Counted from the stretch's first letter, positions 5,793-39,236 are shown. The stretch: 64,000 bases of DNA from Candidatus Desulfofervidaceae bacterium (GCA_027064585.1 JAMOPI010000036.1:65777-129776); one strand, 5' to 3'. A program made the numbers and translations. The notes: generated by a model from the sequence alone, not told the origin.

Positions 5793-6758
5793 ATGCTAAA
5801 AAGGATTTTTTTGCTATTTTTTGTCCTTATATTACCATCAAACTCAAAATCGTGGGAAAAAGTTGTTCTTAAAGTATTTCAAGCCGGTAGTCTCTCTGCT
5901 CCCTTTGCCGCCATGGAAAAGGCCTTTGAGAGACGATATCCCTATATTGATGTTAGGCGAGAGGCAAGTGGAAGTGTAAAGGCCGTAAGAAAGGTCATTG
6001 ATCTTCACAAGCCTTGTGATGTAATTGCGGTGGCTGATTATACCTTAATTCCCAAAATGATGTTTCCTAAGTATGCAGATCATGTAAAACTCTTTGCCCG
6101 AAATGAGTTGGTTCTCTGTTATACTTCTTATTCTAGATATAGCCAAGAAATTAACACCCAAAATTGGTACCAAATTCTAGCCCGTCCAGATGTAAAATGG
6201 GGTTTTTCTAACCCTAGTGATGATCCTTGTGGATACCGCACGGTCATCGCCATTGGGTTGGCATCATTATATTATCATAGGCCTGATTTAATGAAAGAGC
6301 TATTATCCCCTTACCTTAATCTAGGTTGGCAGAAGAATAAAGAAGGATTATCTTTTACTTTTCCTTCTAATCTTAAAATAAAAGGACATAAAATTTTTGT
6401 CCGCCCCAAGTCAGTGGAGCTTCTAGGTTTACTAGAAAGCAAGGCCATTGATTATGCCTTTGAATATAAAAGTGTGGCCCTACAACATAAACTTTTGTTT
6501 ATCTCCCTTCCTTCAGCGGTCAATTTAAGCCAAGTAAAATATATCTCTTTTTATAAACAAGTGAAGATTAAACTTGCTAATGGAAAGGTAATTCCAGGAA
6601 AACCCATTGTTTATGGTATTGCCACTTTAAAAACGGCTCCACATCCCAAAGAAGCCAAACTTTGGGAAGAATTTGTCACCGGCAAAGAGGGCCAAAGAAT
6701 ACTTAAAAACTGTTTTCAAACTCTAATTTCCCCACCAAAGGAAATAAAGGCAAAATAA
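5793..6758 (+). CDS. wtpA: Tungstate/molybdate ABC transporter, periplasmic binding protein (WtpA/ModA type)
   Basis: A 321-residue secreted protein with a hydrophobic N-terminal signal (about 1-20) and no lipobox Cys. The opening of the mature domain, FQAGSLSAPFAAMEKAFERR, and SGSVKAVRKV near 62 follow the WtpA/ModA pattern in which Ser residues bind the oxyanion. The DVIAVADY stretch and the DDPCGYR block near 145 are also typical. It leads a three-gene importer (binding protein, permease, ATPase). Closeness to the archaeal-type WtpA subgroup suggests tungstate, but molybdate cannot be excluded from sequence. Such an importer would feed tungsto- or molybdoenzymes. Confidence 0.85.
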   Translation: MLKRIFLLFFVLILPSNSKSWEKVVLKVFQAGSLSAPFAAMEKAFERRYPYIDVRREASGSVKAVRKVIDLHKPCDVIAVADYTLIPKMMFPKYADHVKLFARNELVLCYTSYSRYSQEINTQNWYQILARPDVKWGFSNPSDDPCGYRTVIAIGLASLYYHRPDLMKELLSPYLNLGWQKNKEGLSFTFPSNLKIKGHKIFVRPKSVELLGLLESKAIDYAFEYKSVALQHKLLFISLPSAVNLSQVKYISFYKQVKIKLANGKVIPGKPIVYGIATLKTAPHPKEAKLWEEFVTGKEGQRILKNCFQTLISPPKEIKAK

Positions 6759-6764
6759 AATACG

Positions 6765-7535
6765 ATGGTGTTACGGAAGATATCTATAGGCGTGGCTTTT
6801 TTAGGAGGTCTTTTTATTGTTGTGCCTATTTTTCATATCTTTGTTACTTTAACCAGCAAAGAATTGCTTCTTACCCTAAAGGATAGAGAAGTCTGGCATT
6901 CCCTCTTTGTCTCCTTTTATGGGGCTGCCTGGGCCACAGTCTTAGGATGTGTATTGGGCATTCCCTTTGCCTATTTTCTTAGCCGATGCGAATTTAAGGC
7001 TAAACGCTTGTTGGAAAGTATTGTCAATCTCCCCGTAGTTATCCCTCATGTAGCCGTAGGCATTGCCCTCCTTTCTCTTTTTAACGAAAGAACTTCCCTA
7101 GGCCGTTTTTTTCAGATTTTACATATTAGTTTTACCGATACCATCTATGGTGTTATCTTGGCTATGAGTTTTGTTAGTATTTCTTTTGTCATCAGTTCCG
7201 CCTTAATTGGTTTCAATAATGTAGATCCTCACTTAGAGATGGTTTCTCGCAGTTTAGGCGCGTCTGCAGCCTATACCTTCTGGCACATCACCTTTCCCCT
7301 GGCCCTGCCAGCTATCTTACGGGGGGCTGTATTGGCCTTTGCTCGCGGTTTAAGTGAGGTAGGGGCATTGCTTATCCTAGCCTATTATCCTAAAACCGCC
7401 CCTATTTTGATGTATGAACGCTTTGAAGAATATGGTCTAAAGGCAGCCAGACCGGTTACGGCTTTAGTCATCTTTGTCTCATTATGTGTCTTTGTCCCTT
7501 TATTGCATTTTTCTAAACGTTATGTTAAGTCTTAG
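6765..7535 (+). CDS. wtpB: Tungstate/molybdate ABC transporter permease
   Basis: A 256-residue inner-membrane permease with about six hydrophobic segments. A binding-protein-dependent transport motif (EAA loop) is visible around residues 155-180, including SRSLGASAAYTFWHITFPLA. It starts 6 nt after the binding-protein gene and its end overlaps the ATPase start (7522) by 14 nt, which implies translational coupling. The length matches ModB/WtpB proteins. Partner and substrate calls rest on the neighbouring genes. Confidence 0.88.
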   Translation: MVLRKISIGVAFLGGLFIVVPIFHIFVTLTSKELLLTLKDREVWHSLFVSFYGAAWATVLGCVLGIPFAYFLSRCEFKAKRLLESIVNLPVVIPHVAVGIALLSLFNERTSLGRFFQILHISFTDTIYGVILAMSFVSISFVISSALIGFNNVDPHLEMVSRSLGASAAYTFWHITFPLALPAILRGAVLAFARGLSEVGALLILAYYPKTAPILMYERFEEYGLKAARPVTALVIFVSLCVFVPLLHFSKRYVKS

Positions 7536-8271
7536 TTTAAAAAAGAACTATCACAATTTTTCTTTGAACGTAGCCTTTTCTGTCAGACCTTACAGTTATA
7601 ATCTCCTTTTAGGACCAAGTGGGGCGGGAAAGAGCCTTATTCTAAAACTCATTGCTGGGTTTGAAAAACCAGATGTTGGTTTTATCCAGTTAGAAGAAAA
7701 AGATATTACCGCATTACCTCCGGAAAGGCGGGAAATCGTTTATTTACCTCAAAACTTGGGCCTATTTCCCCACCTGAGGGTAAAAGAAAGCCTCATTTAT
7801 CCTTTTAAGGCCAAAGGCCAAAAGGTGGATAGGAAGTATTTGGAAAATATTGTGGAGGAATTCGGTCTAAAGCCTTTTTTAAATCGCTTTCCAGCCCAAT
7901 TGAGCGGAGGTGAAAGGCAAAGGGTAGCCTTAGCCCGCTGTCTAATGGCCAAACCTAAGATATGTTTATTAGATGAGCCCCTTTCGGCCTTAGACTTTCA
8001 CCTAAAAATGCGCTTAATCGTGTTTTTAAAACAACTAAAAGAAAAGTTTTCCCTTACGGTTATCCATGTAACCCACGATCCTCTTGAAGCTATCAAATTG
8101 GCAGAGCACTTATTCATTATAGAAGCAGGCAAACTCAGTTTTGCTGGTAATATTAATCAACTTTTTCAGAACCCTCCCACCGGCTTTGCTAGCGATATAG
8201 CCAAACAGCTGGTGGGTCTTAAACAAAGTTTAAATCACCTTCTTTCTAATCTTTTGCCAAAAAATGGTTGA
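7522..8271 (+). CDS. wtpC: Tungstate/molybdate ABC transporter ATP-binding protein
   Basis: A cytoplasmic ABC ATPase of about 249 residues: Walker A GPSGAGKS, signature LSGGERQRV, Walker B KICLLDEPLSALD, and the switch His in VIHVTHDPLEA. The start at ATG 7522 (MLSLSLKKNY) is preferred over an in-frame upstream start at 7474 because the extra 16 residues lie deep inside the permease and are unlike ABC N-termini. It lacks the C-terminal MOP/TOBE regulatory domain (about 100 residues) found in many ModC/WtpC proteins, so it may miss oxyanion feedback control. Confidence 0.87.
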   Translation: MLSLSLKKNYHNFSLNVAFSVRPYSYNLLLGPSGAGKSLILKLIAGFEKPDVGFIQLEEKDITALPPERREIVYLPQNLGLFPHLRVKESLIYPFKAKGQKVDRKYLENIVEEFGLKPFLNRFPAQLSGGERQRVALARCLMAKPKICLLDEPLSALDFHLKMRLIVFLKQLKEKFSLTVIHVTHDPLEAIKLAEHLFIIEAGKLSFAGNINQLFQNPPTGFASDIAKQLVGLKQSLNHLLSNLLPKNG

Positions 8272-12554: not shown

Positions 12555-12740
12555 AAATTCCCTGTGGTGTGCGTGATCAGTAGGCAATTTTGGGCCGACA
12601 TTGACACCCTTGGGAACTCCCGCTGGTTCTGGATGGCATGTTTGCCCCAAAAGGGCAAAAAGCCAGAAGGAACTAAGGAGTGCCCACCTGTCGGGAGACA
12701 GGTTCAAAAGCGTCTACTGACACGGCACCATGGGGTTTTA
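12555..12740 (+). ncRNA. ssrS: 6S RNA
   Basis: A roughly 185-nt GC-rich island that folds back on itself. CCCTGTGGTG (12560-12569) pairs with GCACCATGGGG (12725-12735). CAGTAG (about 12578-12583) pairs with CTACTG (about 12715-12720). Internal arms CTGGTTCTGG and CCAGAAGG, and CACCTGTC and GACAGG, leave open regions between them, giving the long rod with a central bulge typical of 6S RNA. Its place right after zapA is the classic ssrS locus. 6S RNA binds the sigma-70 RNA polymerase holoenzyme and acts as a promoter mimic (family knowledge). The exact ends are estimates. Confidence 0.82.
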
Positions 12741-28701: not shown

Positions 28702-30297
28702 TTAAGGCACAAATGTATACCTTTGCATTCCTTTAGGCACATACCATTTAATGAAGTTGTACATAATTCCTGCTGGTGCAGGTTTTATACCATGAAACCG
28801 CGCACTTACAATAGGCAGAGCGTCTGGAATATACAAAAAGGTATAAGGTTGCTCTTCGGCCAAAATTTCTTGGATACGGTAATAACACCGTTTCCTCTCA
28901 TTTATGTCAAAGGTATTTCTGGCCTTTTCAATCAGTTCGTCTACTTCAGTATTGTGATAGCCGATGAAGTTTAAACCTCCTGGCACATCTTTAGAAGAAT
29001 GCCAAACATCGTATAAATCCGGTTCTGGGGGAATAGTCCAACCTAAAATAGTGGCCTCAAACCGGCGTTTGTCAATAAACTCTCTAATAAAGGCCGCCCA
29101 TTCAATTACCCTGATTTTCACCTTGATTCCAATTTGGGCCAGGCGGTATTGAATGATCTGGGCAGCATTAAGGCGCATAAGATTACCTTGATTAGTAATA
29201 ATAGTAAAACAAAATGGACGTCCGTCCTTATCTAAGATGCCATCTCCGTCTGTATCCTTCCAGCCTGCTTCAGCCAAAAGTTCTTTAGCCTTTTTTGGAT
29301 TATAAGGATAGTGTTTAACATTGGGATTATATGCCCACATGCCTGGCTTATATGGCCCAGTAGCAATTTTGCCCAAACCTAAAAGCACGCCTTCAATGAT
29401 TTCCTTCTTGTTGATCGCATAAGAGATGGCCTGTCTTACCCGCTTGTCTTTAAACAGAGGACAGCGCAGATTATAACCCAGATAAGTATAGCTTGAAGCT
29501 AAGTAGCGGTATTTTTTAAAATGTTCTTTAAACCAGGGTGTATTTGTCTGGCGTTTATATTGAATGGGAGTAAGCCCCATGTAATCAATGCCACCCGCCT
29601 TTAACTCTAAAAACAAGGTAGCTGCATCCGGGATGACCCGGCTGATATACCAATTGATATATGGTCTGCCTTCAAAATAGTCAGGGTTGTATTCAAGCAC
29701 AATCTTTTGCCCACTGACCCATTCTTTAAACCGGTAGGGACCGGTACCAACGGGGTGGCGAATAAGAGGGCTTTTGGTAATGTCCTTTCCTTCTAATAGG
29801 TGTTTAGGTAAAATAGAAAGGGTCCAACTAGCCAGGCCAGGAGCAAAGGGGTGTTTGTAATATACCCTGAAGGTGTAATCGTCTGGAGCCTCGGCCTTTT
29901 CAATTTCCATAAAATCACCGGCATAAGGAGTAGGTGTTTTAGGACCAACCATTAATTTATAGGTAAAAAGCACATCTTGGGCAGTAAAAGGTTTTCCATC
30001 ATGCCATCTTATGCCTTTGCGGAGATGAAAGGTAATGACCAACCCATCTTCTGAAATTTCCCAAGATTTAGCCAAATCACCGGTAAGATTTAGATTCTTG
30101 TCATATTTAAGCAGACCATTATAGACCAATCCTGCAATCTCATGGGAGGCACTGTCTGAGGCAAGAATGGGAATTAAATTGCTGGCCTCGCCAATAGAAC
30201 CAACAATAATAGCATCACCATAAGAGGGAGTTTGAGAGGCAAAGAGAGGGAGTGTAATAACTATTTGTAAAATCAAAATTAATATTGACAAAAACAT
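28702..30297 (-). CDS. Oligopeptide/dipeptide ABC transporter, periplasmic binding protein (SBP_bac_5)
   Basis: A secreted protein of about 531 residues. An N-terminal hydrophobic signal ([19 protein letters not shown]) ends near FASQ. Family blocks include [30 protein letters not shown] and [17 protein letters not shown] in the C-terminal half. ATG 30297 is chosen because AGAAGG lies 7 nt upstream; longer readings (30321, 30387) run into the divergent rlpA. No permease or ATPase genes for peptide uptake are next to it, so it is an orphan here and may work with components elsewhere. Confidence 0.88.
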
Positions 30298-30312
30298 CTT
30301 TTGCCTTCTAAT
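30285..30312 (+). promoter_or_regulatory. Sigma-70 promoter for rlpA, predicting a leaderless mRNA
   Basis: TTGACA (30285-30290), 16 nt, TCTAAT (30307-30312; five of six to consensus). The expected start of transcription is about 30319-30320, which is the A of the rlpA ATG. The promoter lies partly inside the 5' end of the divergent peptide-binding-protein gene, and no ribosome-binding site precedes rlpA. Confidence 0.6.
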
Positions 30313-30319
30313 TAAGAAC

Positions 30320-30766
30320 ATGCGTTTAATATTCTTATGCGGATTTGTCTTTTTATTGTCAAGTTGCACTGCTGTCAAGGTGGTCACCTTTCCCGTTAAG
30401 GTAGCCTATAAAACCGTAGAGATTACTGGCAAGACCACTTGGAAGATAGTTACGGCCCCTCTCCCTGATAATGAGTTAGAGGGAATTGCCTCCTGGTATG
30501 GACCCGGTTTTCACGGACGACGCACGGCTAGCGGTGAAATTTACAATATGTATGCCTACACAGCAGCCCATAGAACTTTGCCTTTGGGTACTTATGTGCG
30601 AGTCATTAATTTGGAAAACGGCAAAAGCGTAGTCGTGCGCATAAATGACAGGGGTCCTTTTAAAAAGGGACGTATTATTGATCTTTCTTACGCTGCAGCC
30701 AAAAAGATTGGCATGCTTGAAAAGGGAACGGCCAGGGTAAGGCTTGAAATATTAAGCAAGCCTTAA
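30320..30766 (+). CDS. rlpA: RlpA-type septal ring lipoprotein (double-psi beta-barrel)
   Basis: A 148-residue lipoprotein. The N-terminal signal ends with the lipobox LLSSC (Cys near 17). The RlpA double-psi barrel from about 50 is clear: [54 protein letters not shown] and AAAKKIGM. Family members bind or cleave denuded glycan strands at division sites. It lacks the SPOR domain found in longer RlpA proteins. It is divergent from the peptide-binding protein with only about 22 nt between starts. Confidence 0.92.
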
Positions 30767-30776
30767 ATCTTTATGT

Positions 30777-31622
30777 TTACTCAAGATAAAAATAGATTGG
30801 TATTTTCAAAGTAATAATTTCTTTATTCAATCCTGGCGGAAAGGCAGGGAAAGGAGCAGCCTTTTTGATTGCCTTTATAGCGGCTTTGTCTAAAAGAGAA
30901 TAGCCCGATGATTTTTGTATTTTAAGCCTTTCTAATTGTCCGTCTTTTTTTAAGGAAAAAACTACAATCACTTTTCCTTCAATTCCATGCCGTCTGGCCC
31001 AGAAGGGATATTCTTTGTATTGTTCAATGCGTAGGCGGACTCTATTTAAATAGACTTTAAGAAAACTTTTTTCTGAAGAATGGTCAGATACCTGTACTCC
31101 AGAGGTGTTTTTTAGGCCAGTGTTAATTTTGTTAACTTGGGCTAGGGTTGTAGATAATGCTTCTGGTTGCGTTTTAGGTGTTTCTAAATTTGGTTTTGCT
31201 GGGGGAGTGGGCTTTTCTTGGCTAGAAGGTGTCTCTTTTAAGGGCTCAGATTTAGGTTTTGGTGTAGGGTTGGAGTTGAATTTAGAGATTTGTTTAGGCT
31301 TTGGTTTAGGTTTGGGTTTGGGTCTGGACTTTGGCTTAGGTTTGGGGTTTGGTTTTGGTTTTGGCTTTGGCTTTGGCTTAGGCTTAGGTTTAACTTTGGG
31401 TTTACGCCTAGCTTTGACTATTCTTTTTTGATTTTTTTGTTTAGTTTCTTTTCTTTTTTCACCTTGAAGTTTTTTGGGTGAAGACGCTGACGGCAAGAAT
31501 TTTAAATCTATTTCAATAGGTGTATTTAAGCTATACTTAGGTAAAGCAAAGGGAATGCCCTTTAATAACACTAAATGCAGGGCAATGGAAAGGATCAAAC
31601 ATAAGCTTAACAATCTATCCAT
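30777..31622 (-). CDS. tonB: TonB energy transducer
   Basis: A 281-residue inner-membrane protein spanning the periplasm. An N-terminal transmembrane anchor (about 3-25), a long Lys-Pro spacer (about 70-140) and a C-terminal TonB domain from about 190, with YPFWARRHGIEGKVIVVFSL and SGYSLLDKAAIKAIKKAAPF, are visible. It transmits proton-motive energy from ExbB-ExbD to outer-membrane receptors. It lies 16 nt downstream of exbD and at the end of the string that begins with a TonB-dependent receptor, so it probably serves that receptor. The gene ends 10 nt from convergent rlpA. Confidence 0.93.
   Translation of the reverse strand: MDRLLSLCLILSIALHLVLLKGIPFALPKYSLNTPIEIDLKFLPSASSPKKLQGEKRKETKQKNQKRIVKARRKPKVKPKPKPKPKPKPKPNPKPKPKSRPKPKPKPKPKQISKFNSNPTPKPKSEPLKETPSSQEKPTPPAKPNLETPKTQPEALSTTLAQVNKINTGLKNTSGVQVSDHSSEKSFLKVYLNRVRLRIEQYKEYPFWARRHGIEGKVIVVFSLKKDGQLERLKIQKSSGYSLLDKAAIKAIKKAAPFPAFPPGLNKEIITLKIPIYFYLE
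31297..31404 (-). repeat. Lys-Pro codon repeat inside tonB
   Basis: A run of imperfect 6-nt units (AAGCCN or AARCCN on the coding strand) encodes roughly 18 Lys-Pro pairs with a few Ser-Arg, Asn and Val interruptions. It forms the stiff periplasmic spacer of TonB and may vary in copy number by slippage. Confidence 0.85.
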
Positions 31623-31638
31623 TATTTATCACTGATGC

Positions 31639-32046
31639 CTATTCTATCTCCCTTTCTGTAGCAATGAAGACTTTTCTTATCCCTGCCAGTTTTGCCCGAT
31701 CCATGACTTTAATCACCCACTCTACTGGTGTTGTCTTATCAGCCTTAATGACAACCGTGACCTTCTGCTCCCGCTTAACCCTTTCACAAAAGAAATGATA
31801 AACACTGGCCAAATCCATCTGTCTTTGGTCTATAAAAATCCTTCCTTTTGGATCAATGATCACTGTAATCTCGCTTGTCTCATTCTGCAAGGTAGCACTT
31901 TTGGCCGCTGGCAGATTAACCGATATGCCTTCATTGCGCAAAAAATTGGCCGTAAGAAGAAAGAAAATAAGCAAAAGAAAAACCATATCAATAAGGGGAG
32001 TGAGATTAGGACTTGGCTTAATTATTTTTCTTTTAAAGGAGATCAT
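31639..32046 (-). CDS. exbD: ExbD/TolR biopolymer transport protein
   Basis: A 135-residue protein with one N-terminal transmembrane helix: NLTPLIDMVFLLLIFFLLTA near 15-34 carries the Asp residue needed for proton coupling in ExbD/TolR. The periplasmic part (about 40-135) includes NLPAAKS and VVIKADKTTPVEWVIKVMDR. Together with ExbB it powers TonB. It is separated from exbB (34106) by an ABC transporter pair and a HEPN relic, an unusual split of the exbBD unit. Confidence 0.93.
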   Translation of the reverse strand: MISFKRKIIKPSPNLTPLIDMVFLLLIFFLLTANFLRNEGISVNLPAAKSATLQNETSEITVIIDPKGRIFIDQRQMDLASVYHFFCERVKREQKVTVVIKADKTTPVEWVIKVMDRAKLAGIRKVFIATEREIE

Positions 32047-32311: not shown

Positions 32312-33100
32312 TTATCTCTCTGTTAGGGTATTTAATTTAGGTAAGACTATCATACGGTTTTCTATATTGAAAATTTCTATCTCCATCTCATAAAGTTCTT
32401 TAAGGTTCCGTTCATTCATGACTTCTTCTACAGGCCCATAGGCAATAATCTTTCCGTTTTTGAGCATGGCAACTTTATCTGAAAATATCATGGCCAGATT
32501 GGAATCATGTAATGTCATAATTGCAGAAAGTCCTCTGTTTTTAATCAGTTTTTTGATCCGGCTTAAAATCACATATTGATTTTTAAAATCTAAATGGTTA
32601 GTCGGTTCATCCAACAACAGGATTTCTGCATCTTGAGCCAATGCCCTAGCTATTAATACAAGCTTCTTTTGACCACCGCTTAATTCGGTGTATGGTTTAT
32701 TTATTAAATCAGTCATACCTACAGTTTCTATAGCCTTTTTGGCCATCATAACATCTTTTTTAGACGGCGAAGACAATAACCCAATATAAGGGGCCCTTCC
32801 CATTAGAACGATGTCTAAAACCGTATATGGAAATGAGGAATTATGCTCTTGAGGAAGGTAAGAGACTTCTCTTGCCAGTTCCTTTTCGTTCAACTCGTTT
32901 ATGTTTTTATCTCCTATAAACACCACTCCTTTTTGAGGTTTTAACAGTTTATTGATGCATTTTAACAAAGTAGATTTTCCAGATCCATTAGGCCCTAAAA
33001 GTGTAAAAATTTCCCCTTGTTTTAGCGAAAAGGTAATATCTTTCAGTACCTTAAATGATTTCTTATACCCGAAATATAAATTTTTTACCTTTAACTTCAT
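32312..33100 (-). CDS. Fec/Fhu/Btu-type ABC transporter ATP-binding protein
   Basis: A 262-residue ABC ATPase of the iron-siderophore/cobalamin importer group. Walker A is LGPNGSGKSTLL near 35-46, the signature LSGGQKKLV near 140, and Walker B AEILLLDEPTNHLDF near 158. The Q-loop PQEHNSSFPYTV is typical of FecE/FhuC. It overlaps the permease gene by 4 nt (ATGA). No substrate-binding protein of the cluster is in view. Placement between exbB and exbD suggests uptake of the substrate that the local TonB receptor admits. Confidence 0.92.
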   Translation of the reverse strand: MKLKVKNLYFGYKKSFKVLKDITFSLKQGEIFTLLGPNGSGKSTLLKCINKLLKPQKGVVFIGDKNINELNEKELAREVSYLPQEHNSSFPYTVLDIVLMGRAPYIGLLSSPSKKDVMMAKKAIETVGMTDLINKPYTELSGGQKKLVLIARALAQDAEILLLDEPTNHLDFKNQYVILSRIKKLIKNRGLSAIMTLHDSNLAMIFSDKVAMLKNGKIIAYGPVEEVMNERNLKELYEMEIEIFNIENRMIVLPKLNTLTER

Positions 33101-34065
33101 CTTCTTTGTAAGTGATATAAATAGGCAAAAAATGGTGCTCCTACTAATGAGGTAAGGATCCCAATAGGTATCTCTCCTGTCGTAATGGTTCTAGCTAAAT
33201 CGTCGGCAATAAGTAAAAATAACCCTCCTAACAGGATACTTACCGGAATTACTTTTACATTATCAGGCCCTACAATTAAACGAGACACATGCGGAATAAT
33301 CAGCCCTACCCACCCAATTATGCCCACTACACTTACGGCTGAGGCAGTAATAAGGGTTGAAACAACAATGATCACTTTTCTGAATTTGTCTACATCAACT
33401 CCTAAAGATTTTGCCTCTTCATCATCCATAGACATAATATTTAAATACCACCTTATAGCATACATTACGCCAATACCTACTAAGATGACAATCAAAACGC
33501 TTACGTTATCCCAATCAACCCCAGAAAAACTTCCCATAATCCAAAAGACAATAGAAGGCAATTGATTCTGTGTATCAGCAAAGTATTTTGCCATCCCTAC
33601 CAATGCTTGAAAAAAAGAGTTTACAATTACACCAGCAATGACCAAACTAAGAACAGGTACTCTTCCCTTCTCTTTTGCCAAAAAATACGCAAGCAATGTG
33701 GCAAGGATACCAAAGAAAAAAGCAAATGTTTGCATGACATAGACATTCTGATGCAAAAGGATAGCTAAGGCTGCACCAAAGGCAGCCCCAGATGAAACAC
33801 CCAGGATATAGGGGGACACAAGAGGATTTTTAAATATGCTTTGATAGGAAGCCCCAGCTACACTTAATCCACTACCAACAGCGACTGCAAATAACACCCT
33901 TGGCAGCCTTATATCATAAATAACGGTACGGTAAGTATCTGGGACATTCTTCCCAATAATTGTATAAATAATTTCTACGGGAGATATGGGAAATGTGCCT
34001 AAAAATAAAGATAAAAATGCTGCAAGAATCAAAATAAAGAGTAAGATTATAATGGACATTCGCAT
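33097..34065 (-). CDS. FecCD-family ABC transporter permease
   Basis: A 322-residue inner-membrane protein with about ten hydrophobic segments. Family blocks are DIRLPRVLFAVAVGSGLSVAG near 48 (first 20 residues or fewer diagnostic), SPYILGVSSGAAFGAAL near 90, EEAKSLGVDVDKFR near 210 and GWVGLIIPHVSRLIVG near 250. It moves siderophores, haem or corrinoids inward with a periplasmic binding protein. It is intact and overlaps its ATPase gene. The substrate cannot be read from the sequence. Confidence 0.92.
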   Translation of the reverse strand: MRMSIIILLFILILAAFLSLFLGTFPISPVEIIYTIIGKNVPDTYRTVIYDIRLPRVLFAVAVGSGLSVAGASYQSIFKNPLVSPYILGVSSGAAFGAALAILLHQNVYVMQTFAFFFGILATLLAYFLAKEKGRVPVLSLVIAGVIVNSFFQALVGMAKYFADTQNQLPSIVFWIMGSFSGVDWDNVSVLIVILVGIGVMYAIRWYLNIMSMDDEEAKSLGVDVDKFRKVIIVVSTLITASAVSVVGIIGWVGLIIPHVSRLIVGPDNVKVIPVSILLGGLFLLIADDLARTITTGEIPIGILTSLVGAPFFAYLYHLQRR

Positions 34066-34105: not shown

Positions 34106-34744
34106 TCACTTATTTTTAAAAGTTTCACTCCTAAAAAAGCCTTGCTTTTCAAGTAAATTTAAAATTTCATTCAAACAATCCTCAAGTTGAGTGGCATAAT
34201 CATTGGCCTGACTTATAAAATAATCATAACATATAAGGGTAGGAATGGCGACGCTGAGGCCAAAGGCCGTCGTAAGCATGGCCTCCCAAATGCCCCCAGC
34301 CAGCATGGCCGCACTTACCTTATTGCCCATGGACTGCACGACCATAAAGGCCTTAATCATTCCAATGACCGTGCCAAGTAAGCCCAAAAGTGGAGAAATA
34401 TTGGCAATCGTTGCCAGCACTGTAAGCCTTGCTTCTGCCTTCCTGACCTCCTTTTGACCAAGATGGGCCAATACTTTTTCCATCACGCTACGACGGGGAT
34501 TATTGGCCAAAGAATGGCCTAATTCCTTTATTAAAGGATGTGGTATTAAAGACGCCTTTTTTTGCGCTGCTTCTAATTTTTGTTCTTCAATTAATGCCTT
34601 TATAGAAGTTAGTTTTTCAACCAATCCATGTTTCTTTAAATAAAGAAGGCAAAACGTCCTTTCCAGAATGATGGCAAGGGCAACGATAGAACATAGAAGA
34701 ATAGGATACATCAAAAGGCCGCCTTTGAAAAAAAGCTCTAGCAT
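34106..34744 (-). CDS. exbB: ExbB/TolQ/MotA-family proton channel protein
   Basis: A 212-residue inner-membrane protein with three hydrophobic segments (about 10-30, 115-140 and 155-180). The MotA/TolQ/ExbB core is visible: LTVLATIANISPLLGLLGTV near 104-123, then GMIKAF and the third helix with LTTAFGLSVAIPTLICYDYF near 153-172. ExbB forms the pentameric proton channel around an ExbD dimer. It lies 27 nt downstream of the CXXCH protein gene and upstream of the FecCD permease, apart from exbD. Confidence 0.92.
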   Translation of the reverse strand: MLELFFKGGLLMYPILLCSIVALAIILERTFCLLYLKKHGLVEKLTSIKALIEEQKLEAAQKKASLIPHPLIKELGHSLANNPRRSVMEKVLAHLGQKEVRKAEARLTVLATIANISPLLGLLGTVIGMIKAFMVVQSMGNKVSAAMLAGGIWEAMLTTAFGLSVAIPTLICYDYFISQANDYATQLEDCLNEILNLLEKQGFFRSETFKNK

Positions 34745-34771
34745 CTCTCTTCCTCAAATAGTAGAGGTTTT

Positions 34772-35773
34772 CTAGTTTACCTCAATTACCTCTATCTTTG
34801 CAACTGCCTTTACCCACCTGTCGGCAAACAGGTCATCAGGCAAAACTAAGATAAATTTTCCATCCTTTTGCAAGGGATGCCCATTACACTTATCGGCAAT
34901 TATAATTTTTTGCCCAGAGGTAGTTAAAAACAATTCTCCGGCTGAGATAAAAGAGCGATAGCCATCGGGGGCAGAAATCAAGATAGCCGCATTTAAACCT
35001 TCTTTCATACCTGCCTTTTTCAGTATATCAACCAAAGGCACTCCACTAAAGGTTTTTACCCCATGATACCCCTTTCCTTCCCCTACGACCTTGATTTTAT
35101 ATGTTTTGTGGGCAAAATTAGATAAATCAGATATTTTCAAAACCTCCTTTTTATTTACTACAACTGTAAATTGGGAAGAAAACAACTTGTTTGTCCGCTT
35201 TGTTTCTATTTTGGGTTTTAAATCAACTACTTCAATTTTGGTTATCTCCTCTAAACATCTATCTGTATAAAAATCATTGGCGATAACTAGTCTAGGAAAA
35301 CCTATATGACGCTTAAGAGGTTTGAGATATGGCTGATAAAAGGAAGGCCTGTGGCAATCTTGACATTTTTTATGGGGCATAATGGGCATGGCGGTATAAG
35401 CAATGATTATCGCGGCTGGATTATGATAAAAAATTTCTCCCCATGAAAGTAAAACTTTTTGACCGGATTTGTTAGTTATTACAATTGCCAAATCAACAGG
35501 TTTATTAAAGTCTGAATTTTTCTTTTGAATTTGAGCTACTTCTAATAAAGTCTGCAAAGGAACACCTCGGTAAAGAAATACTCCTTTAAATTCACCCTCT
35601 CTTGTAACTTCATTCAAACGCACTTGCACAGATTGGAATTGATACAAGTCGTTAACGCTAAGGATTAAATCATGCTTAACACTGCCTGTAATTTGAAGTA
35701 TAGGCATTCCTGCCCAGACTCTTGAAGCAAACAAAAGACTAATTAACATTCCGATAAAAATGACTTTTTTCAT
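34772..35773 (-). CDS. Secreted protein with duplicated molybdopterin-oxidoreductase-like fold and one CXXCH haem motif
   Basis: A 333-residue protein with a signal peptide (about 1-21). Two similar domains (about 25-135 and 205-333) resemble the sulfite-oxidase-like molybdopterin-binding fold; each has a GVPL turn (YRGVPLQTLLEVA near 68 and FSGVPLVDILKKAG near 243). The conserved cofactor Cys is not evident, so it may bind no pterin. Between them CQDCH (137-141) is a c-type haem attachment motif. The start overlaps the stop of the ResB-like gene, so the cytochrome-assembly proteins upstream may serve this protein. The function is unknown. Confidence 0.65.
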   Translation of the reverse strand: MKKVIFIGMLISLLFASRVWAGMPILQITGSVKHDLILSVNDLYQFQSVQVRLNEVTREGEFKGVFLYRGVPLQTLLEVAQIQKKNSDFNKPVDLAIVITNKSGQKVLLSWGEIFYHNPAAIIIAYTAMPIMPHKKCQDCHRPSFYQPYLKPLKRHIGFPRLVIANDFYTDRCLEEITKIEVVDLKPKIETKRTNKLFSSQFTVVVNKKEVLKISDLSNFAHKTYKIKVVGEGKGYHGVKTFSGVPLVDILKKAGMKEGLNAAILISAPDGYRSFISAGELFLTTSGQKIIIADKCNGHPLQKDGKFILVLPDDLFADRWVKAVAKIEVIEVN

Positions 35774-36561
35774 TCTCTTTTCCTCCTTTTAGGATAATAT
35801 AACACCATGAAATACCATCCCATCAACATACACATCATTGCATCGGAAATAAGGGTTAACTTTGCCCCAGGATCATTTTTTACCACAAGATTTAAACAGA
35901 CATAACGATCGTTTGTCTTTACTTTGTCCAGATAAAAACTAAGCCCATGCCAAGAGACAGGGTGAAGAAAGCTGATTTGGATTAATCTTTTATCAGAAGA
36001 ATTGGCTATTTCTAGAGAAATACGGCATTGTTTCAGAAGCCCTTTAACCTTTATTTGCTGCGCTTCTAAGGGGTAATAAACGCAATTTTGACCTACGATT
36101 TTACCCTTTACCCCGGCAGCTAGGTCTATTTCCTTGCCCAACTTGATGGGTAAAGTTTGGTTAATACCAATAGTCATACTCAGAAGATGACCGAAAAGCC
36201 CAAGGAAAAAGCAGAGATGAACAATAGAAGGAGTCATTTTATAAATAATTTCTCTAAAAGTAAATTGTTTTCGCTTTCTCCAAAAATAGGCAAGTTTATT
36301 TAGAGTGCAAATGAGAGTATTTATGGCTAATCCAAATAAAAGCAGGAAAAGAAGAAACAGCCACCATATTTTATCTGTATTTTTCTGTCCATAAACCTGT
36401 AACCATTCTAAAAACAGATATTTATTTAATGCCTTAAAAACCTTAGGATAAAAAGCTGCATAATAACTCCCTATAGCCAAAGTTAGGGCGATACACAAAA
36501 GGAGATAAAAGGCCAGTTTGATACTGCCTAAAATTTGAAAGATTCTTTTTAGCAACCTCAA
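35770..36561 (-). CDS. Short ResB/CcsB-like cytochrome c assembly protein
   Basis: A 263-residue membrane protein related to ResB/CcsB of System II. Two N-terminal hydrophobic segments (about 14-32 and 63-88), a third with SIVHLCFFLGLFGHLLSM near 112-129, a periplasmic domain (about 130-235) and a final helix are visible. Full ResB proteins are about 430-550 residues, so the periplasmic domain is much reduced. It overlaps the CcsA-like gene by 4 nt and the CXXCH protein gene by 4 nt. A haem delivery/ligation role is inferred from family and context. Confidence 0.75.
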   Translation of the reverse strand: MRLLKRIFQILGSIKLAFYLLLCIALTLAIGSYYAAFYPKVFKALNKYLFLEWLQVYGQKNTDKIWWLFLLFLLLFGLAINTLICTLNKLAYFWRKRKQFTFREIIYKMTPSIVHLCFFLGLFGHLLSMTIGINQTLPIKLGKEIDLAAGVKGKIVGQNCVYYPLEAQQIKVKGLLKQCRISLEIANSSDKRLIQISFLHPVSWHGLSFYLDKVKTNDRYVCLNLVVKNDPGAKLTLISDAMMCMLMGWYFMVLYYPKRRKRE

Positions 36562-37244
36562 GCCCCTAAGCGTGGAAGGTGTATTTCTTTTAATTGCCCG
36601 CCATAACTAAAGAGAAGAACTAACCCAAGACCCAGTAAGGCAAATATTGCCTTGTTTTTTATATTTCCATTAGGCAAAAACTTCAGGTGTAAATAAGCCG
36701 CATAATAGCACCAAAGAGAGGCAGACTGTAAGTGTCTATCTCCCCAGTGGAAGGGAGTTGCCCAGCCAAGATAACACCAATAGGCCCCCACTACTTGGGC
36801 AATGGTGTAAAATACAAATCCAAAGACAATTAAGGTATCAAACTCTTTATAAAAAGTTTTACCTCTTAAATAACACAAGGCAAACCATGCCCCTAAGATA
36901 AAACAGGCATGGGCAAGAACTTCAAACAAGAAAAATAAAGAAGAAAGGATGGTATTTTGTTTAGGTGAAGGTAGAAAAATTCCTTTTTGTCTTCTGAGAC
37001 TCTTAAAACTACACCCAAAAAGGCCAAACACCAAGGCAAAAAGAAAACCTCGTTAAACATGGCATTAGGGGTAAAAATACCAATAAGCCAAGCGCGTGCG
37101 ATTAAACTCAGGGTATGAGAGATAAAACCAAACGAGAAAAATAACTTCCCTACCCTTTTCTTTTTTATAAGAAAAAAAGACAAGGCTAGCTGTATAACCA
37201 GCTAGCCCAACGTAAAAGCATAAAGAAAAGAAAGCCATATCCAT
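36558..37244 (-). pseudogene. CcsA/ResC-like cytochrome c assembly gene with two compensating frameshifts
   Basis: A multi-helix CcsA-like protein can be read only by switching frame twice. ATG 37244 opens MDMAFFSLCFYVGLAGY. Near 37165, after an A6 run, the reading moves +1 to VGKLFFSFGFISHTLSLIAR. Near 37000, at GACAAAAAGG, it returns to the first frame for GIFLPSPKQNTILSSLFFL to the end. The usual WWD motif is replaced by WATPFHWGDRHLQSASLWCY, with the family's terminal YLHLK retained. The start overlaps the receptor's stop (TAATG). It could be a pseudogene, a frameshifted gene or an assembly error. Confidence 0.7.
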
Positions 37245-39106
37245 TACCACTTGGCTCCAACACCAATTAAAAAGTTTCTTCCAGGCATAGGGCCATTGCC
37301 CTCGTCATAGTTGACATCTGTAAGGTTTTCTACCTGCGCAAAGAAAAGCCAGTGTTTCATAACTTTCTGAGTTATTTTAGCATTTAAGAGGAAGTAATCA
37401 GGTAGAATTCTAGTAGCGTCATCAGTATATTGCCGATGTACATAGATCATTTGGGTGTTAATGCTTAGTCCAAAATTAAAGTGATACCGGATGTCCAAAC
37501 TAAGTTTGTCCTCTGGCCTCTCATCTAATGGACGTGCGTTTTCATCATCCTTTGTCCATAGATAGGTATAACTAAATTCTGTCCACAAGTTATCTGTAGG
37601 CATAAGTTGCAGGCTTGCTTCTACACCTTGAATTCTAGCTTTTCCGATGTTCTGATATGATTCTTTCTTAGAGGGCTTATAAATCATGTCCCGAATCCGA
37701 TTGTAAAAATAAACAATACTTAAGCTACCACTTATTTCCTCCCATTCAAAATATTTATCTGCCCCTATCTCAAAGGCAAGGGTACGCTGCGGTTTTAAAT
37801 TAGGATTACCATCTCTATCACTAAAGAGTTCCTTCATGTGTGGGAATCTAGTTTTCTTACCCAGAGAGGTGTGAAACTTTGTCGTTTGATTCAATGTGTA
37901 AACAATACCAATTTGCGGATTAACGGTATCAATATCATTTCCCGGAGGTGTACCAGCTGATTTTATGGGATCAAACCGGTCATAGCTTAAACCAGCTACA
38001 ACTGACCAGGGACCAAGGTAGATTTCATCTTCAATAGCAAAGGTATAGGTTGCTGTTTCATAGGTTTCTTCAGGTGTCCAGCCAGAGTTAACAAAGTAGG
38101 TCTGTTCCTTGTGCTGATCAAAGATGTAATTAAAACCCAACTTTAAAAGATTAAAGTTACCAGTTTTCAAATGCGCCTGCATTTCTCCACCAGCACTGTA
38201 ATCGTCATAAGCACTCTTGTCAAACCACTTTCCACCTAAAGTGGTGCAGGTCTTGTCTGTATAGCTAGCAATGGTATCTTCGTGGTCTACATAAAAAACA
38301 CGCGCCTTTAATTTAAGGTTATCTCCAAACTTTTGTTCTCCTACCAGGTTTAAGTGCCATTCATCCCAGTCAATAAAACGCCAGTAACGGTAGTATTCTG
38401 TAGGAATACCCCGTTCGTTGTTGTGATAGTCAAAGGAGAGATAAACCTTTGTGTTGTCTTTATCATAACCGATTTTGGCATTGAAAGCATGTTTTTCATA
38501 ACCACTTAAATCCCGTTTACCTCCATCTTCTTGATAGGGAGAATTAACACCAACATTAGCATCATTAGGATCAAAATGGCTGGAAAGCCTAAAGCCATCA
38601 CTTTTTTGATAGGCATAGGTGAAAAAGTAATTGATATCTCCTATTTGCCAGCCGTGATTCAAGGCATAGTGCTGGGTGCTGTAATCACCAAAAGCGGCCT
38701 TTGCCGAAGCCGAAGGTTTAGGACTGCCTTTTTTCGTGATGATATTGATCACTCCACCCATGGTGTTTGCGCCATAAAGGACTGAAGACGCTCCTTTGAT
38801 AACCTTTATCTTGGCAATGCTTTCTACTGGAAACTGACTTAAATCCAATGTGCGAAAATAAGTCTCATAGGCAGGCACGCCGTCTATAAGTACTTTTACA
38901 TCTCCTTGCTCAAAGCCTCTTATATACACATGCATTTCTCCCTTACCACCCATTTCCACATCTACACCAGGAATAAGTTCCAGGGCCTCAGCTACCGTTT
39001 CACACCCACGGGCCTGAATATCTTCTGCTGTAATTTCAGTCACGGTTGTAGCCTCTGCCACCGCCTCTTCCTCAGCCGTTACTACTACCTCTCCTAGATC
39101 AAACAC
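37244..39106 (-). CDS. TonB-dependent outer-membrane receptor (signal peptide frameshifted)
   Basis: A receptor of at least 620 residues. A TonB-box-like FDLGEVVVTA opens the mature protein, followed by a plug domain (LIPGVDVEMGGKGEMHVYIR, VLIDGVPAYE, IKVIKGASSVLYGANTMGGV) and a beta-barrel ending ...GVGAKW with the aromatic C-terminus of outer-membrane proteins. Upstream in frame lies a signal core (VILILFIPFLVRA) but no start codon; ATG 39168 (MKRYFK) is in the adjacent frame. One missing A near 39154 would restore a full signal peptide. The plug resembles BtuB/siderophore receptors. The ligand is unknown. Confidence 0.9.
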   Translation of the reverse strand: MFDLGEVVVTAEEEAVAEATTVTEITAEDIQARGCETVAEALELIPGVDVEMGGKGEMHVYIRGFEQGDVKVLIDGVPAYETYFRTLDLSQFPVESIAKIKVIKGASSVLYGANTMGGVINIITKKGSPKPSASAKAAFGDYSTQHYALNHGWQIGDINYFFTYAYQKSDGFRLSSHFDPNDANVGVNSPYQEDGGKRDLSGYEKHAFNAKIGYDKDNTKVYLSFDYHNNERGIPTEYYRYWRFIDWDEWHLNLVGEQKFGDNLKLKARVFYVDHEDTIASYTDKTCTTLGGKWFDKSAYDDYSAGGEMQAHLKTGNFNLLKLGFNYIFDQHKEQTYFVNSGWTPEETYETATYTFAIEDEIYLGPWSVVAGLSYDRFDPIKSAGTPPGNDIDTVNPQIGIVYTLNQTTKFHTSLGKKTRFPHMKELFSDRDGNPNLKPQRTLAFEIGADKYFEWEEISGSLSIVYFYNRIRDMIYKPSKKESYQNIGKARIQGVEASLQLMPTDNLWTEFSYTYLWTKDDENARPLDERPEDKLSLDIRYHFNFGLSINTQMIYVHRQYTDDATRILPDYFLLNAKITQKVMKHWLFFAQVENLTDVNYDEGNGPMPGRNFLIGVGAKW

Positions 39107-39207
39107 TTCCTCAGCTCTTACTAAAAAAGGTATAAAAAGTATTAAAATAACTTAAAATACCTTTTCATAATTTTAACTTCCCAAAATGTAATGAAAGTTT
39201 GGCAAAA

Positions 39208-39236
39208 TTTATAAAAGAATTAAAAACTCTTGTCAA
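39208..39236 (-). promoter_or_regulatory. Sigma-70 promoter of the TonB receptor gene string
   Basis: On the minus strand TTGACA (39236-39231), 17 nt, TATAAA (39213-39208), about 40 nt before ATG 39168. It is an excellent promoter for the receptor-ccsA-resB-CXXCH genes and possibly the Exb/Fec genes. No cobalamin riboswitch-like sequence is seen between promoter and start. Confidence 0.75.

Follow-up and report, generated by a model that had tools for sequence, protein, structure and literature searches.

A TonB receptor operon with a secreted CXXCH protein

Profile annotation (Pfam and NCBIfam, with homology to other loci for the ResB-like gene) of a 64,000-nucleotide stretch of DNA from a Candidatus Desulfofervidaceae bacterium (GCA_027064585.1, JAMOPI010000036.1:65777-129776; "the window") revealed a minus-strand row of genes encoding, in order, a TonB-dependent receptor, a CcsA-like protein, a ResB-like protein, a secreted CXXCH protein, ExbB, FecCD, FecE, ExbD and TonB (Table 1). 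The family of the CXXCH protein was designated CX. The gene set, its order from receptor to tonB and the TAATG/ATGA-type junctions are as claimed in the original prediction for this region, which knew of no described system of the same make-up; our literature searches likewise found no description of the module. Comparison with homologous loci (given L numbers) revealed that the module is real, recurrent and apparently undescribed, and that the window holds a damaged copy of it with a local pair of ATP-binding cassette (ABC) transporter genes. Its two most telling features, which lie beyond what the prediction had seen, are a tetrapyrrole-methylase domain fused to CX and a neighbourhood of tungstate and molybdate genes. 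The component families are known, whereas their combination and its association with molybdenum and tungsten (Mo/W) genes are new to us and to the literature searched.

Table 1. Features of the receptor operon (window coordinates) and what supports their assignment
Feature	Position	Strand	Support
Promoter-like TTGACA-17-TATAAA	39207..39235	-	upstream of receptor; read directly from sequence
TonB-dependent receptor	37244..39168	-	PF00593/PF07715 in plug/barrel open reading frame 39106-37244; signal-peptide ATG 39168 out of frame
ccsA-like gene, disrupted	36558..37244	-	Cytochrom_C_asm PF01578, 3.5e-11; DNA alignment to intact L008 copy
Short ResB-like membrane protein, intact	35770..36561	-	homologous to ResB-like genes of L008, L042, L052, L059, L061 and others
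CX, secreted, tandem SUOX/PruR-type domains	34772..35773	-	PF00174, 2e-13; CXXCH residues 137-141 inserted in repeat 1
ExbB-type proton channel	34106..34744	-	MotA_ExbB PF01618; under both TolQ and ExbB equivalog cut-offs
FecCD-family ABC permease	33097..34065	-	PF01032; nearest solved relative MolB (HI1471)
FecE-type ABC ATPase	32312..33100	-	ABC_tran; nearest single-domain solved relative HI1470
ExbD	31639..32046	-	PF02472
TonB with Pro/Lys-rich linker	30777..31622	-	TonB_C PF03544

To compare the loci, 33 extended loci together with L008 and L009 were annotated with profiles built from the loci themselves. CX has a TonB receptor next to it in nearly every one, CcsA- and/or ResB-like genes are present in 17 of the ~28 loci with enough sequence (about 60%), and ExbB, ExbD and TonB genes adjoin CX in ~10. 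The predicted co-occurrence of these genes thus recurs across loci, and the cytochrome genes are not missing from most relatives; since the same association is found in many families, a chance origin of these genes' grouping can be excluded. All four of plug/barrel receptor, ExbB, ExbD and TonB score above Pfam cut-offs in the window, and the same set recurs in L044, L045, L046, L049 and L059. The ABC pair, predicted to belong to the system, does adjoin the TonB parts, but it lies outside the conserved core: FecCD/FecE are adjacent to a CX locus only in the window, the pairs of L055 and L064 lying at a distance of 6-8 kb.

CX homologues were found in 29 of the 395 genomes of a phylum-wide sample, scattered over many families, in 13 of the 85 genomes of one class, and further in SURF_17 (L009) and a Syntrophaceae genome (L010). 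The window genome (1.92 Mb, 38 contigs) carries a single copy, and no homologue was detected in the same-genus/same-family genomes G001-G004 or in the viral contigs and plasmids searched. Such a patchy distribution suggests horizontal transfer or repeated loss.

The operon had been read as an uninterrupted run from receptor to CX behind a strong promoter. The promoter-like element, ~40-60 bp upstream of ATG 39168, is readable, but it is absent from the output of our stricter promoter scan, whose rule demands a T at the last -10 base. Homologues of all four genes are there, but the ccsA-like gene is broken and the receptor, as assembled, has no in-frame export signal: ATG 39168 encodes MKRYFKLF followed by a stop, and the receptor frame reads VILILFIPFLVRAEEVFD. 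Reading of the ccsA-like gene from ATG 37244 stops after 59 codons (37067-37065); conserved CcsA sequence goes on in a second frame (37183-36893) before returning to the first (37052-36558). As reference we used L008 (JAGGSX010000198.1), which has an intact 249-aa ccsA-like gene and a CX protein 83% identical to that of the window; the contig is titled Thermoplasmata archaeon, yet it bears a Gram-negative TonB operon and is probably a misbinned bacterial contig. In the DNA alignment with L008, the window copy has gained one base in a T-run near 37175 and lost 58 bp near 36986, in a deletion between short CAAA repeats that costs the protein about one transmembrane segment. This deletion argues for decay, and a programmed frameshift was rejected. 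An intact CcsA and ResB pair is found in relatives such as L008, L052, L059 and L061 and not in the window. No further breaks were obvious in the window parts inspected, although no systematic test for breaks was made, and local decay is likelier than a generally poor assembly since the inspected neighbouring genes read through; the window copy is probably decaying. A terminator-like hairpin with a T-run lies just within the ccsA start (37208-37183, minus strand), and by eye L008 has a comparable stem and T-run at the matching position; the hairpin could attenuate expression downstream of the receptor.

The CX protein, its fused methylase domain and the CcsA/ResB-like pair

Fold comparison was needed to place CX, since sequence searches of its repeats against solved structures gave marginal matches only. 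Half-profiles of CX match each other at 99.5% probability in hhalign, revealing an internal duplication, and its AlphaFold model (predicted local distance difference test score 89) matches SoxC, SorA, YedY and, most compactly, PruR in Foldseek, with E-values down to 3.5e-8. Together with the PF00174 match this identifies the SUOX fold. The Mo-ligating cysteine is missing, the NQC of SorA aligning with NEV, and the homologue alignment contains no conserved cysteine in either repeat apart from CXXCH; CX is therefore not a SUOX molybdoenzyme, and an active Mo sulfite-oxidase-like function was rejected. Sequence conservation is seen at an SW motif in repeat 1 and a DGY motif in repeat 2. The GEGP diheme protein model NF041762 was also rejected (19.8 bits against a cut-off of 300), CX having one CXXCH. 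Distant CX-like double-domain proteins lacking CXXCH, with a membrane-anchor-like N-terminus, are encoded in L046 (17347-18480) and L065-L068, and a 20-kb stretch of L050 contains three CX-type genes next to that of a putative heavy-metal-chelation protein (DUF364/DUF4213).

PruR is a periplasmic pterin-binding protein of SUOX fold without the Mo-ligating cysteine (PMC13259868). CX is likewise a secreted SUOX fold devoid of that residue, with target-normalised template-modelling scores to PruR of 0.75/0.64, which measure fold only; in CX, unlike in PruR, the fold is duplicated in tandem, CXXCH is inserted and a domain of methylase fold often follows at the C-terminus, and pterin binding by CX is putative. 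By analogy, CX might act as a sensor rather than in import, binding a periplasmic pterin or metal-pterin and passing the signal on via the TonB receptor or partners in the membrane. We consider this very improbable, as no DcpA-like or sigma/anti-sigma partner was identified, the whole uptake machinery accompanies CX, and the structural scores speak for fold only.

At most of the other loci, CX is extended by a tetrapyrrole-methylase domain (PF00590; E ~1e-36 in L009/L010), which the Pfam scan did not detect in the window CX. By sequence and predicted fold the domain is nearest CobM/CbiF, and it retains the GDP and PGISSF/PGIS-type motifs. Since the predicted model of the fusion contains no membrane segment between signal peptide and methylase domain, the latter is predicted to reside in the periplasm, where S-adenosylmethionine (SAM) is not known to occur. 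In this compact system, a methylase fold of the cobalamin pathway is thus joined to a PruR/SUOX tandem and a putative c-haem in one secreted protein, and the fusion poses the question of how a SAM-type methylase fold is used outside the cytoplasm. Desulfovibrio CbiK-P, a periplasmic cobaltochelatase, offers a precedent for a tetrapyrrole-pathway fold that has moved to the periplasm and is encoded close to genes for metal uptake; it belongs to a chelatase family, whereas the domain fused to CX has a methylase fold. The CobM/CbiF likeness and retained motifs favor the chief rival to a function in tungsten or molybdenum supply, namely that a cobamide or metal tetrapyrrole is taken up by the receptor and bound in the periplasm by the methylase-fold domain, with CcsA/ResB and the c-haem taking part in tetrapyrrole handling. 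We rate this corrinoid or tetrapyrrole uptake as rather unlikely in view of the observations described below.

The CXXCH motif is conserved in 28 of the 33 CX homologues; one of the five lacking it is L063, where the motif can be read in a different frame. Haemylation of CX by the local CcsA/ResB proteins, proposed in the original prediction, is unsupported or at best unproven: the genetic link is loose, the window ccsA is broken, and the window genome carries a full canonical ResB elsewhere. L042, L059 and L061 have lost CXXCH and kept CcsA/ResB, and many CXXCH-bearing loci have no local pair. The two proteins thus cannot simply be a private haem attachment system of CX; on this ground a maturase dedicated to CX only was rejected, and the comparison of loci weakens the case for dedicated haem attachment. 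The CcsA-like proteins of CX loci fall in two divergent groups, and the ResB-like gene of the window has no Pfam or NCBIfam match below 0.01 despite its homology to the ResB-like genes of other loci. As in System II cytochrome c biogenesis, homologues of both components are adjacent in many loci; unlike in System II, the ResB is short and without a Pfam ResB match, the CcsA is short and divergent with an altered WWD region, and the pair is kept where CX lost CXXCH and is broken in the window.

Tungsten and molybdenum genes around CX

Genes for Mo/W uptake and regulation recur next to CX across distantly related families. L060 encodes a TupA fused to CX, followed by a ModE-type helix-turn-helix (HTH) protein, TupA, TupB and TupC; L044 and L046 have WtpA between CX and the receptor; L051 has TupABC and two ModE-type HTH genes; L041 and L079 have TupABC near CX; and L049 has TupA and a molybdopterin formate-dehydrogenase-type gene. 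The gene row of L058 runs ModE-type HTH, CcsA, ResB, ModA, ModB and ModC, its ModA being recognised from the translation. PBP_like-HTH regulators, whose domain is common to molybdopterin-biosynthesis proteins, are found in L009, L041 and L062. In 7 of 24 genomes, against 0.44 expected (P ~2e-7), an Mo/W binding protein is encoded no more than 7 kb from CX; counted by family, this holds for 5 of 13 against 0.43 expected (P ~4e-5). The test is conservative, because the expectation includes all SBP_bac_11 proteins, some of which are not Mo/W proteins, and its numbers are descriptive, because the neighbourhoods were inspected before counting.

Cobalamin genes, in contrast, recur in one genus only among the loci compared (L053/L054), where cobD, a cobC-like gene and cobT stand beside the receptor-CX locus, and at the gathering threshold no cobalamin riboswitch was detected in the window or in 27 loci, nor one for Moco in the loci scanned. 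Both the rarity of nearby cobalamin genes and the lack of a cobalamin riboswitch argue against corrinoid uptake.

Candidate ligands and a proposed mechanism

Comparison with solved structures gave divided pointers. The window receptor is nearest BtuB (103 bits), followed by CirA (78), and the TonB-B12 model of NCBIfam is its best model, though far under the cut-off. The permease is nearest MolB (2nq2_A, 244 bits), ahead of FhuB (203), haem permeases (191/171) and BtuC (138), which speaks against corrinoid import, whereas BtuC-type models lead for it in NCBIfam; the best single-domain solved relative of the ATPase is HI1470 (2nq2_C), narrowly ahead of FhuC. MolBC-A transports molybdate (PMC4031551). 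The window pair has Haemophilus MolBC (HI1471/HI1470) as nearest solved relatives, narrowly so for FecE; unlike in that system, no MolA-type protein, and no binding protein at all, was found beside it. In its plug-barrel receptor, ExbB, ExbD and TonB, and in the window its ABC pair, the module resembles the BtuB/TonB-ExbBD systems, from which it differs by the secreted c-haem tandem SUOX-fold protein, the CcsA/ResB-like proteins, the frequent methylase fusion and the absence of a binding protein.

FecCD/FecE next to the TonB parts, a receptor scoring with siderophore and haem models and the conserved CXXCH would also suit uptake of iron, a ferric chelate or haem with a periplasmic haem protein reducing the metal, the idea of the original prediction. 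This is unlikely in our view, as the ABC pair is adjacent in the window only, CXXCH is dispensable in four lineages, and the recurring neighbours inspected are Mo/W genes, not iron genes.

Ligands assigned to TonB receptors include iron, cobalamin, nickel, copper and sugars; to our knowledge no such receptor is established for tungsten or molybdenum, metals that W/Mo-dependent anaerobes have to acquire at trace levels. We give about an even chance to the module being a TonB-energised outer-membrane system that serves tungsten/molybdenum supply, to which the CX fold, shared by SUOX domains of Mo enzymes and by pterin-binding PruR, adds some weight. A more specific version, offered tentatively and with clearly less confidence, is a dedicated TonB-dependent anaerobe route for W or Mo as chelate, thioanion or metal-pterin, with a periplasmic haem-bearing PruR-like double domain, an extracytoplasmic methylase fusion in most relatives and a private CcsA/ResB pair.

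Several observations weigh against a tungsten/molybdenum function. About two thirds of CX loci have no nearby Mo/W gene, and the complete tungstate importer of the window (WtpABC at 5793-8271, WtpA above cut-off) is ~22 kb off, too far to count. The likeness to MolB is a ranking, among solved structures, inside the broad FecCD family of differing substrates, the BtuB-leaning receptor and the methylase fusion suggest a corrinoid or tetrapyrrole as the ligand, and the methylase fold, pterin-type fold and haem genes would be just as compatible with one. The missing Mo-ligating cysteine stands on the same side, as does an APC amino-acid permease that recurs unexplained in ~15 loci.

Gene content, conservation, folds and co-localisation with Mo/W genes are established by the present analysis, and for W/Mo supply the ligand, redox step and direction of hand-over are inferences. 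In the simplest account, the receptor would bring a Mo/W-bearing ligand (a thio- or oxyanion complex, chelate or metal-pterin) into the periplasm, where CX, usually with one covalent haem as redox or structural group and often methylase-fused, may receive and bind it and alter its redox or ligand state. The mini CcsA/ResB would supply or handle haem for this periplasmic step, and the freed oxyanion could be handed to an ordinary oxyanion importer (TupABC, WtpABC or ModABC), whose place the MolBC-like FecCD/FecE pair would take in the window.

Two further features of the window were recorded. An oligopeptide/nickel-type binding protein is encoded directly downstream of the operon (28702-30387, minus strand), and a 6S RNA lies at 12556-12740 (89.5 bits).

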